IMG/VR virus record: IMGVR_UViG_3300005529_000076
Span: 1-32,806 of that record
Origin: a virus
Reading direction: 5' to 3' (one strand)
DNA: 32,806 nt
Notes under the pieces: model-generated
What the model was told of the DNA's origin: nothing
Seen by the model: only the letters and a program-made list of their open reading frames with translations
Database searches by the model: none
Position numbers and translations under genes: made by a program
In this document: positions 907-8,722 of the stretch, in pieces
How the letters are laid out: each line of letters begins with the position of its first letter
Position numbering within the stretch: the stretch's first letter is position 1

Positions 907-1163
907 TGACTGGTTGCGCGTGCGTCTCTGAGGTCAACAACCACCTTCGGGGCCACAACTCCGCACTGATTACGACCATGTTCGCACAGCCTGAGCGCGT
1001 CGTCATCACCACGACGAAGGTGAACGATCGCCAGCGCGGCAAGCCCGTCCCGATGATCGCGACTTACTGCCCGTTCTGCGGCCAAGCAATCTGGCCGAGT
1101 TCCACGACCCGGACGGCGCCTCCGGCCACTTCGAAGGCTACGTCGAGGAGGCCGCTGAGATGA
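906..1163 (+). CDS. Small zinc-ribbon protein, apparent C-terminal frameshift (85 aa)
   Basis: ATGA overlap with the previous gene. The N-terminal 60 residues look genuine: a Cys pair near the start (GCAC), then a CPFCGQ zinc knuckle around residue 60. After the knuckle this frame turns into a Ser/Thr/Pro/Arg-rich run typical of out-of-frame GC-rich DNA. From about 1085 the adjacent frame becomes strongly coding-like (NLAEFHDPDG, HFEGYVEEAAEM) and continues to 1237. Either a base has been lost near 1085, or translation slips -1, or a downstream gene has lost its own start. From memory, relatives tend to end shortly after CPFCG. Function unknown. Confidence 0.6.
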   Translation: MTGCACVSEVNNHLRGHNSALITTMFAQPERVVITTTKVNDRQRGKPVPMIATYCPFCGQAIWPSSTTRTAPPATSKATSRRPLR

Positions 1164-2791: not shown

Positions 2792-3003
2792 TGATCAGCA
2801 TATCCCCCGACCTCAGCATCACCGCCCAAAGCGTCTCCGCAAAGGTCAAGCAGCTCCAGGTGACTCTCACTGGCGTCACCACTGAAGTCCAGTTGGAGAA
2901 GTGCGACCAGCTCATCGCGGACGCCGAGGAGGACTTGCGGTCCCTAAGACGCAGCCTCTGGAGGCTGAAGGTCCAGAAGCCCTTCATGGAGTTAGCGAGA
3001 TGA
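2791..3003 (+). CDS. Hypothetical early protein, coiled-coil-like (70 aa)
   Basis: The ATG shares its A with the previous TGA, and the stop overlaps the ERF gene's ATG at 3000. Mostly helical with heptad-like spacing (QLEKCDQLIADAEEDLRSLRRSLWRLKVQ), so probably a short coiled coil. Its tight link to the annealing protein suggests a partner or accessory of recombination, but this is inference from position only. Confidence 0.72.
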   Translation: MISISPDLSITAQSVSAKVKQLQVTLTGVTTEVQLEKCDQLIADAEEDLRSLRRSLWRLKVQKPFMELAR

Positions 3004-3749
3004 ACGCAGTCGTTCAGACCGTCGAAGAACGCGGCGTGGTGGCCGCTGACGCTGGCTCGATCATGGCGATCATCGATCGGGCCGCCCGCGATCCCAACAC
3101 CGACATGGACAAGCTGGAGCGCCTGCTTGGCATGTACGAGCGGATCACCGCGCGCCAGGCCGTCCAGTCCTACACCGAGGCGATGAGCGCGGCCCAGGCC
3201 GAGATGACCCGCGTCGCCACCGACGCCAACAACCCGCAGACCAAGAGCCGCTACGCGACGTATGCGGCCCTGGATCGGGAGCTTCGGCCGACCTACACCA
3301 AGCATGGCTTCGCGCTGAGCTTCGGAACCGCCGAGGGCGGGCCGCCTGAGCACGTCCGGGTAACCTGCACGGTAGCACACCGCGACGGCCACGCCGAGCG
3401 CTTCCACATCGACATGCCGGCGGACGGCAAGGGCGCCAAGGGCGGCGACGTGATGACCAAGACGCACGCCACCGGCGCGGCCATGTCCTACGGCCAGCGC
3501 TACCTGCTGCGGGCGATCTTCAACATCGCGGTCGGCGACGACAAGGACGGCAACGCCTACCACGCCCGCGAGCAAAGCGGCGCCAGCGAGGCGGCCATGG
3601 CCGCCATCAACGCCTGCGAAACCCTCGCCGACCTGAAGACCTGGAAGGTGAAGAACGCCGACAGCCTTTCCAAGCTGGAAGGCGCCGAAGCTGACGAGAT
3701 CGTGCGCCTGTTCAATCGCCGCGTCGAAGCCCTGAAGGCCCGCCAATGA
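3000..3749 (+). CDS. ERF-family single-strand annealing protein (249 aa)
   Basis: Belongs to the Erf group of phage recombinases that anneal complementary single strands, acting with a 5'-3' exonuclease. Seen here are SRYATYAALDRELRPTYTKHG (about residues 83-103, the family's 'Y.t...l...rp.l..hG' block) and MSYGQRYLLRAIFNIAVGDDKDG (about 162-184, the 'Y..RY.l...f.i..gdDdg' block). The start at 3000 overlaps the previous stop as ATGA; an in-frame upstream ATG at 2901 would run through the preceding gene and is unlikely. The 3' end overlaps the exonuclease ATG. The C-terminal 60 residues are more variable, as usual for the family. Confidence 0.92.
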   Translation: MNAVVQTVEERGVVAADAGSIMAIIDRAARDPNTDMDKLERLLGMYERITARQAVQSYTEAMSAAQAEMTRVATDANNPQTKSRYATYAALDRELRPTYTKHGFALSFGTAEGGPPEHVRVTCTVAHRDGHAERFHIDMPADGKGAKGGDVMTKTHATGAAMSYGQRYLLRAIFNIAVGDDKDGNAYHAREQSGASEAAMAAINACETLADLKTWKVKNADSLSKLEGAEADEIVRLFNRRVEALKARQ

Positions 3750-4366
3750 TCCAAGGCTCGCCAGAGTGGCATCAGGCAAGGCTCGGCAAGCTGACGGCTT
3801 CGCGGCTCCCCGATGCCCTCGCCAAGATCAAGACCGGCTGGGGCGCGTCCAGGGCCAACCTCATGGCCGCGCTGCTGGTCGAGCGCCTGACCGGCCAGCC
3901 CGAGGAGACCTACGTCAACCCGGCCATGCTGTGGGGCATCGAGGTTGAGCCGCAGGCGTGCGACGCCTACGCCTTCCACACCGACGCCGAGCTGACCGAG
4001 GCCGGCTTCGTGGATCATCCGACGATCGCCATGTCCGGCGCCAGCCCTGACCGCTTTGTCGGCGACGACGGGCTGCTGGAGGTCAAGTGTCCGCTGACGG
4101 CCACGCATCTCGATACGCTCATGGGCCAGGCCGTCCCCGGCCGCTACCTGACGCAGATCGGCTGGCAACTGGCCTGCACCGGCCGGGCCTGGTGCGACTT
4201 CGTTTCCTACGATCCGCGGCTCCCCTGGAACATGCGCCTGTTCGTCAAGCGCGTTCATCGGGACAACGACTTCATCGCGGAGTTGGAGCGCGAGGCCGCG
4301 ATCTTCCTCGCCGAGCTCGACGCCAAGATGGCGCGGCTGACCGAAGCGACCGCGAGGGCCGCATGA
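3746..4366 (+). CDS. YqaJ/lambda-type exonuclease (206 aa)
   Basis: Predicted 5'-3' double-strand exonuclease supplying 3' tails for the ERF protein just upstream (ATGA overlap). Family features: SPEWHQARLGKLTASR at residues 5-20, WGIEVEPQA at 63-71, and the PD-(D/E)xK active site with Asp102 in SPDRF and Glu112-x-Lys114 in LLEVKCP. Next comes a Gln-rich helix (YLTQIGWQLACTG) with the conserved glutamine. Length is normal for phage members. A host-type repair role is unlikely given the gene's neighbours. Confidence 0.93.
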   Translation: MIQGSPEWHQARLGKLTASRLPDALAKIKTGWGASRANLMAALLVERLTGQPEETYVNPAMLWGIEVEPQACDAYAFHTDAELTEAGFVDHPTIAMSGASPDRFVGDDGLLEVKCPLTATHLDTLMGQAVPGRYLTQIGWQLACTGRAWCDFVSYDPRLPWNMRLFVKRVHRDNDFIAELEREAAIFLAELDAKMARLTEATARAA

Positions 4367-4860
4367 CCACCTTTCAGGCCATATGGGAAAACGGGCTCCT
4401 GCGCCCGCTCCAGCGCTTCCACAACGTGCTCGCCGCCGAGTTCGGCGATGGCGAGGTCGTGACGCTGGAACGCCGCGAGGAGCGCTCAGGCCCAAGTCAC
4501 AATCACTATTTCGCGTCGGTCAACGAGGCGTGGAAGAACCTGCCCGAGCACATGGCCGAGCGCTGGCCTACCGCCGACCATCTGCGCAAGTGGGCGCTGA
4601 TCAAGGCTGGGTACCGGGACGAGCGCTCGATCGTATGCGCCTCCAAGGCCGAGGCGTCGCGCGTGGCGGCCTTCATCCGCCCGATGGATGAGTATGCCGT
4701 CGTCACCGTCCGCGAGGCTGTGGTGACCGCCTACACGGCCAAGAGCCAGTCCATGAAGGCGATGGGCAAGCAGGACTTCCAGGCCAGCAAGGACGCCGTG
4801 CTCGGCATCGTGTCCGAACTGCTGGGCGTCACACCCGATCAGCTTCGGAAGGCCGCCTGA
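4363..4860 (+). CDS. Conserved phage protein of recombination operon (165 aa)
   Basis: ATGA overlaps with the exonuclease and with the HNH gene. The N-terminal part is strand-rich (FQAIWENGLLRPL, VVTLERREERS). A central motif SHNHYFASVNEAWKNLPEH is followed by HLRKWALIKAGYRDERSIVC. From memory, this H.HYFA.v..AW.NLPE block with HLRKWALIKAGY occurs in many phage proteins next to recombination or replication genes, with no known function. Conserved His and Tyr residues leave room for nucleic-acid binding or catalysis, but nothing is proven. Confidence 0.85.
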   Translation: MTTFQAIWENGLLRPLQRFHNVLAAEFGDGEVVTLERREERSGPSHNHYFASVNEAWKNLPEHMAERWPTADHLRKWALIKAGYRDERSIVCASKAEASRVAAFIRPMDEYAVVTVREAVVTAYTAKSQSMKAMGKQDFQASKDAVLGIVSELLGVTPDQLRKAA

Positions 4861-5225
4861 TGTCCGCCTCACGCATGGATCAGCCGCTGGTAAGGGAGGC
4901 GGTGGAACTACATGAGCGCAAGCCGCTGACGCAGCATGACGCCTGCCCGGTCTGCCGGGCGCCCCTAGTGCTCGTCATCAATGAGGTGGATGTCTGCGAG
5001 CCGATGATCGACGAGCACATCCTGCCCCTCTGGCTCGGCGGCTCCAACGATCTCAGCAACCGGGCGCTCTACTGCATTCCATGCGCTCGGGCCAAGACCA
5101 AGCGCGAGGCGACCGAGCGGGGCAAGGTGCTCCGCCTCGCCAGAGACGCCGATCCCTCCACCCGGCGCCAGCCGATCCGCAAGCTGCGGGGCAGAGGCTT
5201 TCCAAAGGACCCGCTGAGGCCATGA
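4860..5225 (+). CDS. HNH endonuclease-like protein (121 aa)
   Basis: Zinc-bound HNH fold: CPVC at residues 29-32 and CIPC at 72-75 would hold structural zinc. Between them DEHILPLWLGG (Asp51, Glu52, His53) and NDLSNRAL (Asn64, Asn67) supply the His/Asn positions. The final H/N/K position is filled by the lysine-rich helix ARAKTKREA. Family members nick or cut DNA; in phages they act in packaging or as homing or accessory nucleases. Here the gene follows exonuclease and annealing genes, not terminase, so a recombination or DNA-processing role is more likely. The stop overlaps the next ATG. Confidence 0.85.
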   Translation: MSASRMDQPLVREAVELHERKPLTQHDACPVCRAPLVLVINEVDVCEPMIDEHILPLWLGGSNDLSNRALYCIPCARAKTKREATERGKVLRLARDADPSTRRQPIRKLRGRGFPKDPLRP

Positions 5226-6789: not shown

Positions 6790-7128
6790 ATGAGCCCGGA
6801 CGTGCTCACGTTCGGCGAGGTGTGCGGCAGGCTCCGGGTCAGCGACAAGACCTTGCGGGGAATCTTGGAGCGTGGCGAACTGCGCGCCCGCAAGGTCGGC
6901 GCACACTGGCGCATTAGATCCGACGATCTCGACGCCTACCTTCGGGGGCCTGAATGTCCGTCTTCAAGCGAGGCGATTTCTGGTGGTACGACTTCACCCT
7001 CCGAGACGGCAAGCGCCGCCGCGCCTCCACGAAACAACGTAGTAAGGCTGCGGCGCTCCGCGTTGAAGCGCGCGAGCGCGAGCGGGCCGAGCTGGGCGAA
7101 GCACCTGCCCAATTCATACCGACGCTAA
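6790..7128 (+). CDS. Excisionase-like HTH protein with apparent 3' frameshift (112 aa as read)
   Basis: Residues 6-52 match the winged-helix excisionase/MerR-like domain: LTFGEVCGRLRVSDKTLRGILERGELRARKVG and WRIRSDDLDAYLR. Such proteins bind att-arm DNA and direct the integrase toward excision, or act as regulators. After YLRG the frame turns Ser/Ala/Arg-rich and overlaps the integrase by 175 bp. One extra G in the G5 run at 6944-6948 would give YLRGA-stop, with TGA directly before the integrase ATG. The true product is therefore probably about 54 residues, through a sequencing error, a natural mutation or slippage. Confidence 0.72.
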   Translation: MSPDVLTFGEVCGRLRVSDKTLRGILERGELRARKVGAHWRIRSDDLDAYLRGPECPSSSEAISGGTTSPSETASAAAPPRNNVVRLRRSALKRASASGPSWAKHLPNSYRR

Positions 7129-8063
7129 AGGAGGCCGCCGATCGCTGGTTCGCTTCCAAGGTGGAAGGACGTAAGTCCGCTTCGACGGTGGCTCTGCGCC
7201 TGGAGATCGCCCTTCGCACCTTTGACCCTGACGCTCTCGTTACGGATATCCGTACCCCAGACGTCGAAGACGCCATACAGCGTCGGCGTCTGGAAGTTTC
7301 CCGCCAGGGCAAGGTTCCGTCGAACGCGACCGTCAATCGCGACCTTGTTGACACGACGCTACGCCCAATTCTGGGGTATTGCCGGGCCATACTCGAGATA
7401 CCGTGTCCGGCGATCGATTGGCGGCGCCTGCGTCTCCCTGAGCCTAAGGGACGCACGCGCGATTTCACGGTGGCCGAACTTCACGCGTGGCGGACCGCAC
7501 TCCCGGTGCATCACCGCCCCGTCTTCGACTTCATTGCCGCCTTCGGCGTCCGCTTGAGCGAAGCCTTCTTTCCCCCCGCCGCCTTCGATCCCGAGACGCG
7601 GATCATCACGCTTCGCCAGCGCAAGAACGGCCTGCCGCATGTGCTGACGCTGACGCCGGAGGAGGCGAGGGAGCTTGCAGCTCGGCGGGGGAGAGCGCTC
7701 GAAGCAGGCTTGCCGAGCCTCTGGTTTCGGGAGGGTCGGCGGCGTCTTTGGCCGATCACCCCGCGCGGCTTCCAGAATGCCTCCTACAAGGCGCTGAGAG
7801 CCGCAGGCGTGGCTGACGCCCGGGCCGTGCATGATCTGCGCCACCACGCGGCGACGGCCTTCCTGAGGCTTCCTGGGGCCACGGCGTTCAGCGTGCAGCA
7901 GTTCCTCGGCCATGAGGATATCAAGTCAACCGCCAGGTATGCACACGTCAGCCAAACCGACGTTTACAACATTCGACGGCGCGCCAGCGCCACAAACGCC
8001 CGTTTAGACGAGACAGAGGCTAGCGAAAACAGTAAGATAACCGACGAACGCACCGGCACCTAA
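6954..8063 (+). CDS. int: Tyrosine-family phage integrase (369 aa)
   Basis: Site-specific recombinase for integration and excision. An N-terminal DNA-binding strand region (FKRGDFWWYDFTLRDGKRR) is followed by a core-binding helical domain (about 57-150) and the catalytic domain (about 170-340). Active-site residues visible: Arg200 in GVRLSEA, Lys224 in RQRKNG, His293-x-x-Arg296 in HDLRHH, His320 in LGHEDI and Tyr329 in STARYAHVS. The start ATG at 6954 directly follows an in-frame TGA and a G-rich run. The C-terminal tail past 345 is polar. The TAA stop at 8061-8063 falls inside the tRNA-Leu-like sequence, so the 3' end of int overlaps the likely attachment core. Confidence 0.95.
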   Translation: MSVFKRGDFWWYDFTLRDGKRRRASTKQRSKAAALRVEARERERAELGEAPAQFIPTLKEAADRWFASKVEGRKSASTVALRLEIALRTFDPDALVTDIRTPDVEDAIQRRRLEVSRQGKVPSNATVNRDLVDTTLRPILGYCRAILEIPCPAIDWRRLRLPEPKGRTRDFTVAELHAWRTALPVHHRPVFDFIAAFGVRLSEAFFPPAAFDPETRIITLRQRKNGLPHVLTLTPEEARELAARRGRALEAGLPSLWFREGRRRLWPITPRGFQNASYKALRAAGVADARAVHDLRHHAATAFLRLPGATAFSVQQFLGHEDIKSTARYAHVSQTDVYNIRRRASATNARLDETEASENSKITDERTGT

Positions 8064-8096
8064 ATCCAGTGCGTCTGCCAGTTCCGCCACATCCGC
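8051..8096 (-). other. 5' half of tRNA-Leu(TAG), candidate att site
   Basis: Read on the - strand from 8096 it gives acceptor strand GCGGATG, a complete D-arm (GCGGAACTGGCAGACGC), the 5' anticodon stem CTGGA and the loop TTTAGGT with anticodon TAG. The following GCCGG pairs only partly (one mismatch, one wobble) with that stem. No variable arm, T-arm or acceptor 3' strand follows, so it is not a working tRNA. Its position at the end of int strongly suggests an attachment site with crossover in the anticodon loop. Confidence 0.8.
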
Positions 8097-8232
8097 GCCG
8101 AGGGAAAACCCGCGATTTCGCCCTCTGCATCGGCTATTTAGGACGGCAAGCAAGCGAAGGGGAGGGCAGTTGAGCGGAAACGTTTACGGCACACCAGCGA
8201 CACAATCCGTTTCCGAGTCGTTCGGAGGCTGA
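8097..8232. other. Non-coding junction beside the tRNA fragment
   Basis: No convincing gene. This stretch lies upstream of the tRNA-Leu 5' half and could have been copied with it from a host tRNA promoter region; no clear -35/-10 pair is visible toward the tRNA. It contains the inverted repeat at 8175-8215. Confidence 0.5.
8175..8215. repeat. 8-bp inverted repeat near att
   Basis: CGGAAACG at 8175-8182 and CGTTTCCG at 8208-8215 are perfect inverted arms 25 bp apart; the left arm runs into the palindrome AAACGTTT. The spacing fits a pair of protein-binding sites, for example integrase arm or accessory-factor sites, better than an RNA hairpin. Confidence 0.5.
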
Positions 8233-8439
8233 ATGAGCAAAGAGGCCCGTATGCAAACCGGAAAGCTCGGCTATCGCACGCGTCACTGGAGCGGTCTGCG
8301 CTTTGTCGGTGACGCTGACGTTCAGTGGAAACCGGGCGATCGCATCCTCCGCGGACGCGGCTCCTATCGCTTCTTCTACGGGGTCGGCCGACGCAGCAAC
8401 CGGCGCGCTTTCTATCCAGGTCGCTATTCGCGCTGGTAG
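8233..8439 (+). CDS. Small basic aromatic-rich protein (68 aa)
   Basis: The ATG at 8233 has GGAGG about six bases upstream. Strongly basic with many Arg, Tyr, Trp and Phe residues (YRTRHWSGLRF, GRGSYRFFYGVGRRSNRRAFYPGRYSRW); no acidic cluster, signal peptide or TM segment. It could bind nucleic acid. No family recognised. It sits between the att-like site and the convergence zone, where phages often carry lysogenic-conversion or moron genes. Confidence 0.55.
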   Translation: MSKEARMQTGKLGYRTRHWSGLRFVGDADVQWKPGDRILRGRGSYRFFYGVGRRSNRRAFYPGRYSRW

Positions 8440-8485
8440 CTCTTAATCCCCCGCCACTTACAGACCCATCCAATGGGGAGAGGAA

Positions 8486-8722
8486 ATGAGTTCGGAACTG
8501 ATTTCGTCGTCAGAGCTTGCGCGAATGCGCCTGCGTCGCCGAATGAAGGCACGCGGCGCTTGGTGGGACTGGAAACACGCCTTCAAAGCTCGGCGCCGGG
8601 TGTGGCAAGTCGCTAGACCTCGGACCCTCGAAGTGCGGTCGCTCGAACGGCTTTCCGACTATCTGGATAGGATGGCGGAACGGAGTGACGCCACGCACGA
8701 TGGTTCAGCTAATCCGGGATGA
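8486..8722 (+). CDS. Small basic protein (78 aa)
   Basis: Good ribosome site GGGAGAGGAA directly before the ATG at 8486. Basic helical stretch (ELARMRLRRRMKARGAWWDWKHAFKARRRVWQVAR), then a short helix (SLERLSDYLDRMAER) and a polar tail. It shares the basic, Trp-rich character of the preceding gene, 46 bp upstream, so they are probably co-transcribed. Function unknown. Confidence 0.55.
   Translation: MSSELISSSELARMRLRRRMKARGAWWDWKHAFKARRRVWQVARPRTLEVRSLERLSDYLDRMAERSDATHDGSANPG

Follow-up and report, generated by a model that had tools for sequence, protein, structure and literature searches.

A phage attachment site carrying the 5′ half of tRNA-Leu(UAG) and its probable recombination with the host gene

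Based on the window, namely the whole 32,806-nt stretch of viral DNA analysed here (IMG/VR record IMGVR_UViG_3300005529_000076), and on integrated phages with related integrases, we propose with a probability of roughly 0.93 that positions 8051-8096 are an attP core that recombines with the host tRNA-Leu(UAG) gene, the phage giving nucleotides 1-39 with everything upstream and the host giving nucleotides 40-85. The half, its position and its attP setting are read from the window itself, and attL, attR and attB from relatives, so that integration of the window phage in the manner of its relatives is a proposal by analogy. Phages and islands carrying a tRNA 5′ half are a known, though uncommon, kind.

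The proposed mechanism is as follows. First, the integrase would join the attP core to the host tRNA-Leu(UAG), the crossover presumably lying within or beside the anticodon loop. The gene rebuilt in this way would take nucleotides 1-39 and its upstream DNA from the phage and nucleotides 40-85 from the host. In the lysogen, a defunct 5′ fragment aimed back at int would then remain at the int end together with the native promoter, and at the far end phage DNA would drive a complete tRNA gene.

The tRNA half and its setting in the window

The tRNA part, the first 39 nt of tRNA-Leu(UAG) up to and including the anticodon loop, runs from position 8096 to 8058 on the minus strand (GCGGATGTGGCGGAACTGGCAGACGCACTGGATTTAGGT), and by sequence and a structural scan it comprises the acceptor 5′ strand, the D-arm, the 5′ anticodon stem and the anticodon loop. 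An earlier sequence-only reading had placed a tRNA-Leu 5′ half at 8051-8096, with acceptor 5′ strand, D-arm and anticodon loop present and the rest missing. The half proves real and is composed as described, and over the window ARAGORN found no tRNA and Rfam gave no match at gathering level; its limits, however, must be redrawn to 8058-8096, as 8051-8057 is phage sequence (GCCGGTG, where the host tRNAs seen have TTCCAGC) that mimics part of the anticodon stem yet differs from those tRNAs. The tRNA content of attP ends at position 39, the end of the anticodon loop, with nothing beyond, and the Leu(UAG) 3′ half is absent beside int and elsewhere in the window.

Alignment with bacterial tRNA-Leu(TAG) genes, which the same reading had suggested as a check, gave an exact match, all 39 nt being identical to complete tRNA-Leu(UAG) genes in two Caulobacteraceae genomes (G218 and G327) among the 348 genomes of the family holding Brevundimonas and Caulobacter that were covered by a family-wide pattern search. 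An earlier class-wide exact pattern search of 385 genomes gave no match, and many of the Brevundimonas genomes sampled are one D-loop base off the 39 nt. For related integrases, the density of strict 5′-half matches is 5.8 per kb within 60 nt past the int stop and 0.011 per kb elsewhere. Therefore, the exact 39-nt matches and the enrichment after the int stop together exclude a chance origin of the half in the window.

The features of the site and its surroundings are:

2901-5225, plus strand: Erf annealing protein, RecE-like exonuclease, NinB-like protein and HNH endonuclease, left of att (PHROGs)
6954-8063, plus strand: tyrosine integrase (int), 369 aa (Pfam Phage_integrase, 4e-12; PHROG integrase, 7e-37)
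7976-7997, minus strand: int-side arm-type repeat GTTTGTGGCGCTGGCGCGCCGT, within the int 3′ end (match to the far-side copy)
8051-8057, minus strand: phage bases replacing the host 3′ anticodon stem (comparison with G001 and host tRNAs)
8058-8096, minus strand: attP core, nucleotides 1-39 of tRNA-Leu(UAG) (sequence, structural scan, identity to G218 and G327)
8097-8232, minus strand: phage region predicted to become the upstream and promoter region of the rebuilt tRNA (analogy with the far ends of G001, G080 and G272)
8186-8207, minus strand: far-side arm-type repeat GATTGTGTCGCTGGTGTGCCGT (match to the int-side copy)
10625-31124, minus strand: lytic enzyme and ejection proteins, head proteins, SU10-type portal and large terminase, right of att (PHROGs and Pfam)

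The integrase stop codon TAA (8061-8063) is complementary to part of the tRNA anticodon loop, and the tRNA half is antisense to int. An imperfect inverted repeat, CACTGG..CCGGTG, surrounds the anticodon loop and likely represents the core-type integrase sites. The two 22-nt arm-type repeats agree at 18 of 22 positions, a level reached by none of 60 shuffles, and their distances from the tRNA resemble those in most relatives.

As phage genes lie on both sides, the site is an attP rather than a host junction, and the same gene order around int is found in free phages with related integrases. A left-over host junction was the second possibility raised from the sequence alone; taken as host DNA that bears the tRNA 5′ half and lies to the right of another element, we consider it very improbable. 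The int-end junction of integrated relatives does look alike over the tRNA half; however, phage recombination genes stand on the left, and structural, portal and terminase genes continue rightward, confirming the conflict with structural genes past 8100 that had already been pointed out. In addition, the far-side arm repeat at 8186-8207 is present, and the layout, with the half between int and the late genes, is that of complete phage records such as Rhizobium phage RHph_I3_18. The genes on both sides and the flanking arm-type repeats exclude the junction for the window, barring a chimeric contig.

An IMG/VR pattern search with the 32-nt core returned three contigs. One of them (L002) was rejected as it holds a complete, unrelated tRNA-Leu; the other two are viral contigs with a tRNA-Leu(UAG) 5′ half at one end (L003, 9302-9333; L004, 29-60), adjoining integrase genes missed by the homology searches. 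Separately, the very end of the window contig (1-132) is made of 12-bp repeats arranged head-to-tail (CCAGGGNCGCCG).

Integrated relatives and empty sites

Searching genome contigs with an integrase profile yielded relatives that are integrated. In six prophages, int adjoins a tRNA 5′ fragment, and the far end holds a complete tRNA oriented the same way; three of the six are in tRNA-Leu(UAG). The first of these lies in a Brevundimonas MAG (G001, contig NZ_JAUSOE010000020.1), in the same tRNA gene, and its integrase is 48% identical to that of the window; the 5′ fragment at 42811 (minus strand) adjoins int, and the second copy, 41.8 kb off at 949-1033 (minus strand), is a complete tRNA-Leu(UAG). 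The corresponding empty attB occurs in two other Brevundimonas (G021 and G091), wherein the flanks, 88% identical to those of G001 beside the int-end fragment and 91% beyond the complete tRNA, are separated only by a single 85-nt tRNA. The second is a 50.2 kb element (G080) with empty attB in G103 and G109, both flanks being ~95% identical, and the third an element of 25.5 kb (G272); an empty attB was thus seen, in other species, for two of the three tRNA-Leu(UAG) prophages (G001 and G080). The same layout occurs at Leu(UAA) (G215) and at Thr(UGU) in Phenylobacterium (G329) and in Novosphingobium guangzhouense SA925 (G735). Judged from this layout, what the phage carries is the 5′ half in each integrated case.

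These sets supply the comparison of attB, attL and attR that had been proposed for the window phage, with the complete tRNA at the far end and the 5′ fragment beside int, and they bear out in relatives the suggestion of 5′-half restoration by the phage. A search for an integrated copy of the exact window phage found none, and the lysogen evidence is that of relatives; a single-protein integrase search of IMG/VR gave no close relative and a plasmid search no integrase match. By tblastn, the G001 contig matches the main ORFs of the window at the integrase only, and its prophage looks P2-like by tail sheath and portal, versus the SU10-type portal of the window phage.

The relatives also bear on the conventional arrangement, wherein a phage-borne 3′ half elsewhere in the element would complete the tRNA. 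Sister integrases do work in this way, for example that of G020 at Leu(CAA), 61% identical to the G001 integrase, as does that of Synechococcus phage Ssp-JY42. However, the window has no Leu(UAG) 3′ half, and the phage-borne part in G001, G080 and G272 is the 5′ half, not the 3′ half restoring a far-end tRNA-Leu that the sequence-only reading had named as the contrary outcome; we hold this explanation to be even less probable than the junction. Just as hard to credit is that the half serves as an integrase target only, with no working tRNA rebuilt and a phage-encoded tRNA complementing, as is known in actinobacteriophages (PMC10865867), for 39 bp are shared here versus attP/attB cores of ~10 bp there, the chimera is predicted to form a complete tRNA such as is seen in integrated relatives, and no tRNA gene is found in the 32.8 kb, though the contig may be incomplete.

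Two further loci deserve mention. The two ends of the 42.6 kb prophage of G735 (L124; G735:C72:109691 and 152243) have the tRNA-Thr 5′ half in common, together with 62 nt upstream that are identical. Another locus (L205, G114:C1:1911477-1912062) holds two tRNA-Leu(UAG) 5′ halves 547 bp apart, both with phage-type promoters, that enclose a remnant of the int C-terminus; apparently an earlier integration at the same tRNA left a prophage that has since shrunk to its pair of att ends.

Upstream DNA of the rebuilt gene

In textbook tRNA-targeting phages the host promoter stays and the tRNA tail is replaced. The 5′-half arrangement puts the host tRNA under phage-borne upstream sequence and leaves the native promoter aimed into the prophage, and tRNA-Leu(UAG) is single-copy in nearly all Brevundimonas genomes sampled. 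Island finders and prophage trimming that seek 3′ fragments alone would misplace the ends of such elements.

From 32 regions upstream of tRNA-Leu(UAG) in Caulobacteraceae, a promoter matrix was derived that reads TTGCCC-N16-CTAGAG. The phage-side upstream DNA of G001, G080 and G114 scores 15.2-17.3 at -46/-24, against a host median of 17.4 and a random-DNA 99th percentile of 8.9, which supports, by sequence, that the phage brings a promoter along in the Brevundimonas relatives. Beyond the hexamers, the G001 phage promoter has no detectable similarity to the native promoter it replaces; the phage copies of G735 and G329 repeat host upstream DNA, over 62 nt (100%) and 81 nt (91%), respectively. 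For G272, the Caulobacteraceae tRNA-Leu(UAG) matrix found no good promoter on either side. Matches at p<=0.05 occur in 22 of 32 carriers of 5′ halves versus 5 of 24 carriers of 3′ halves, a difference that is partly confounded, as some integrated contigs show host upstream DNA. In integrated relatives the displaced 5′ fragment keeps the native promoter, aimed toward int.

In the window, the best match is:

8121-8149, minus strand: weak promoter candidate TTGCCG-N17-AGAGGG (matrix score 6.2, p about 0.08-0.13)

A sigma-70 consensus scan of 7900-8500 found no site. Since the best matrix match within 8097-8232 is weak, we infer by analogy that this region may act as the promoter of the rebuilt tRNA. 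The earlier suggestion of a promoter from 8097-8232 is thus upheld by sequence for the Brevundimonas relatives, and for the window itself it stays at the level of this weak candidate.

One complete tRNA-Leu(UAG) (L166, in G090) has a leader, CCTAGAAGGCCCGTCCTGCC, closer to phage-side promoters than to the leaders of related genomes, and may be an old 5′-half lysogen.

The integrase family and known systems

In a set of ~130 related integrases, the 5′ halves (of Leu, Pro, Val and Thr tRNAs) are antisense to int and mostly lie 10-49 nt past the stop, the Leu(UAG) halves overlapping the stop; in other family members, the int strand bears a 3′ half. In both forms alike, the anticodon loop adjoins int and the tRNA piece lies on the far side of the loop. 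On a quick tree of 99 integrases, the 32 labelled 5′ and 19 labelled 3′ require at least 5 switches, the labels coming from a home-made structural scan with those of L074 and L095 left out as spurious. The window's clade (support 100) holds four 5′ forms and one 3′ form, and G001 (5′, Leu-UAG) pairs with G020 (3′, Leu-CAA) at support 97. Such switching fits a near-symmetrical anticodon-stem core, and the G001 and G020 integrases exemplify natural pairs suited to the study of orientation change on a tRNA core. A broader scheme, which we put forward as a tentative and rather doubtful one, is that the family sees a near-symmetrical anticodon stem-loop core and hence switches repeatedly between 3′ and 5′ halves, that the promoter of the 5′ phages drives a single-copy host tRNA, and that transcription from the native promoter left behind enters int antisense and may contribute to silencing this gene.

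Several known systems resemble this arrangement. Islander reports 5′ fragments in 159 of 3,919 tDNA islands and anticodon-centred sites in about half (PMC4383910), and the class with 5′ fragments shares the tyrosine integrase, the tRNA target, the anticodon-loop crossover, the displaced 5′ fragment and the complete far-end tRNA, with no defining difference; the window and its relatives add a phage attP with paired arm sites, a promoter region placed between the arm and the core, and switching between 5′ and 3′ halves that recurs within one integrase family. Recombination at the 5′-distal tRNA part is described as considerably less frequent in a paper citing Zhao and Williams 2002 for it (PMC6563490), and the title of that work and the citing sentence indicate the same kind of recombination. 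Judged against a library of open-access papers, three points may be new: that the att site brings a promoter, as seen in sets of attL, attR and attB; that arm, promoter and core follow in this order; and that orientation has switched repeatedly.

Among phages, RHph_I3_18 (tRNA-Pro GGG), VSN-002 (Pro-UGG), Microcystis phage Mvi-Yong1342-1 (Pro-UGG) and Synechococcus phage Ssp-JY40 (Val-UAC) have related integrases followed, 13-39 nt past the int stop, by a tRNA 5′ half on the opposite strand, but their tRNA targets are others and their integrases are 25-30% identical to that of the window. The conventional 3′-half phage Ssp-JY42 (tRNA-Arg CCU) shares the integrase family (~34% identity) and an anticodon-loop core next to the int 3′ end; in phages of its type, however, the tRNA is on the other strand, the 3′ half comes from the phage and the native promoter keeps its place. 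In tRNA-dependent lysogeny, a single-copy tRNA gene is likewise disrupted and lysogen survival rests on phage sequence (PMC10865867), but there the tRNA is left unrebuilt and a separate phage tRNA complements, whereas here the gene itself would be rebuilt.

Within the family, an IMG/VR contig (L045, IMGVR_UViG_3300048925_000304) carries a tRNA-Pro(UGG) 3′ half at 3589-3641, near kin carrying the 5′ half of the same tRNA, and its integrase and the one of Sphingopyxis phage VSN-002 share ~50% identity. The VSN-002 integrase itself (L008; MZ127829.1, 1501-2619) is labelled 'telomere resolvase' in GenBank, and it groups with tyrosine integrases and adjoins a tRNA-Pro 5′ half.
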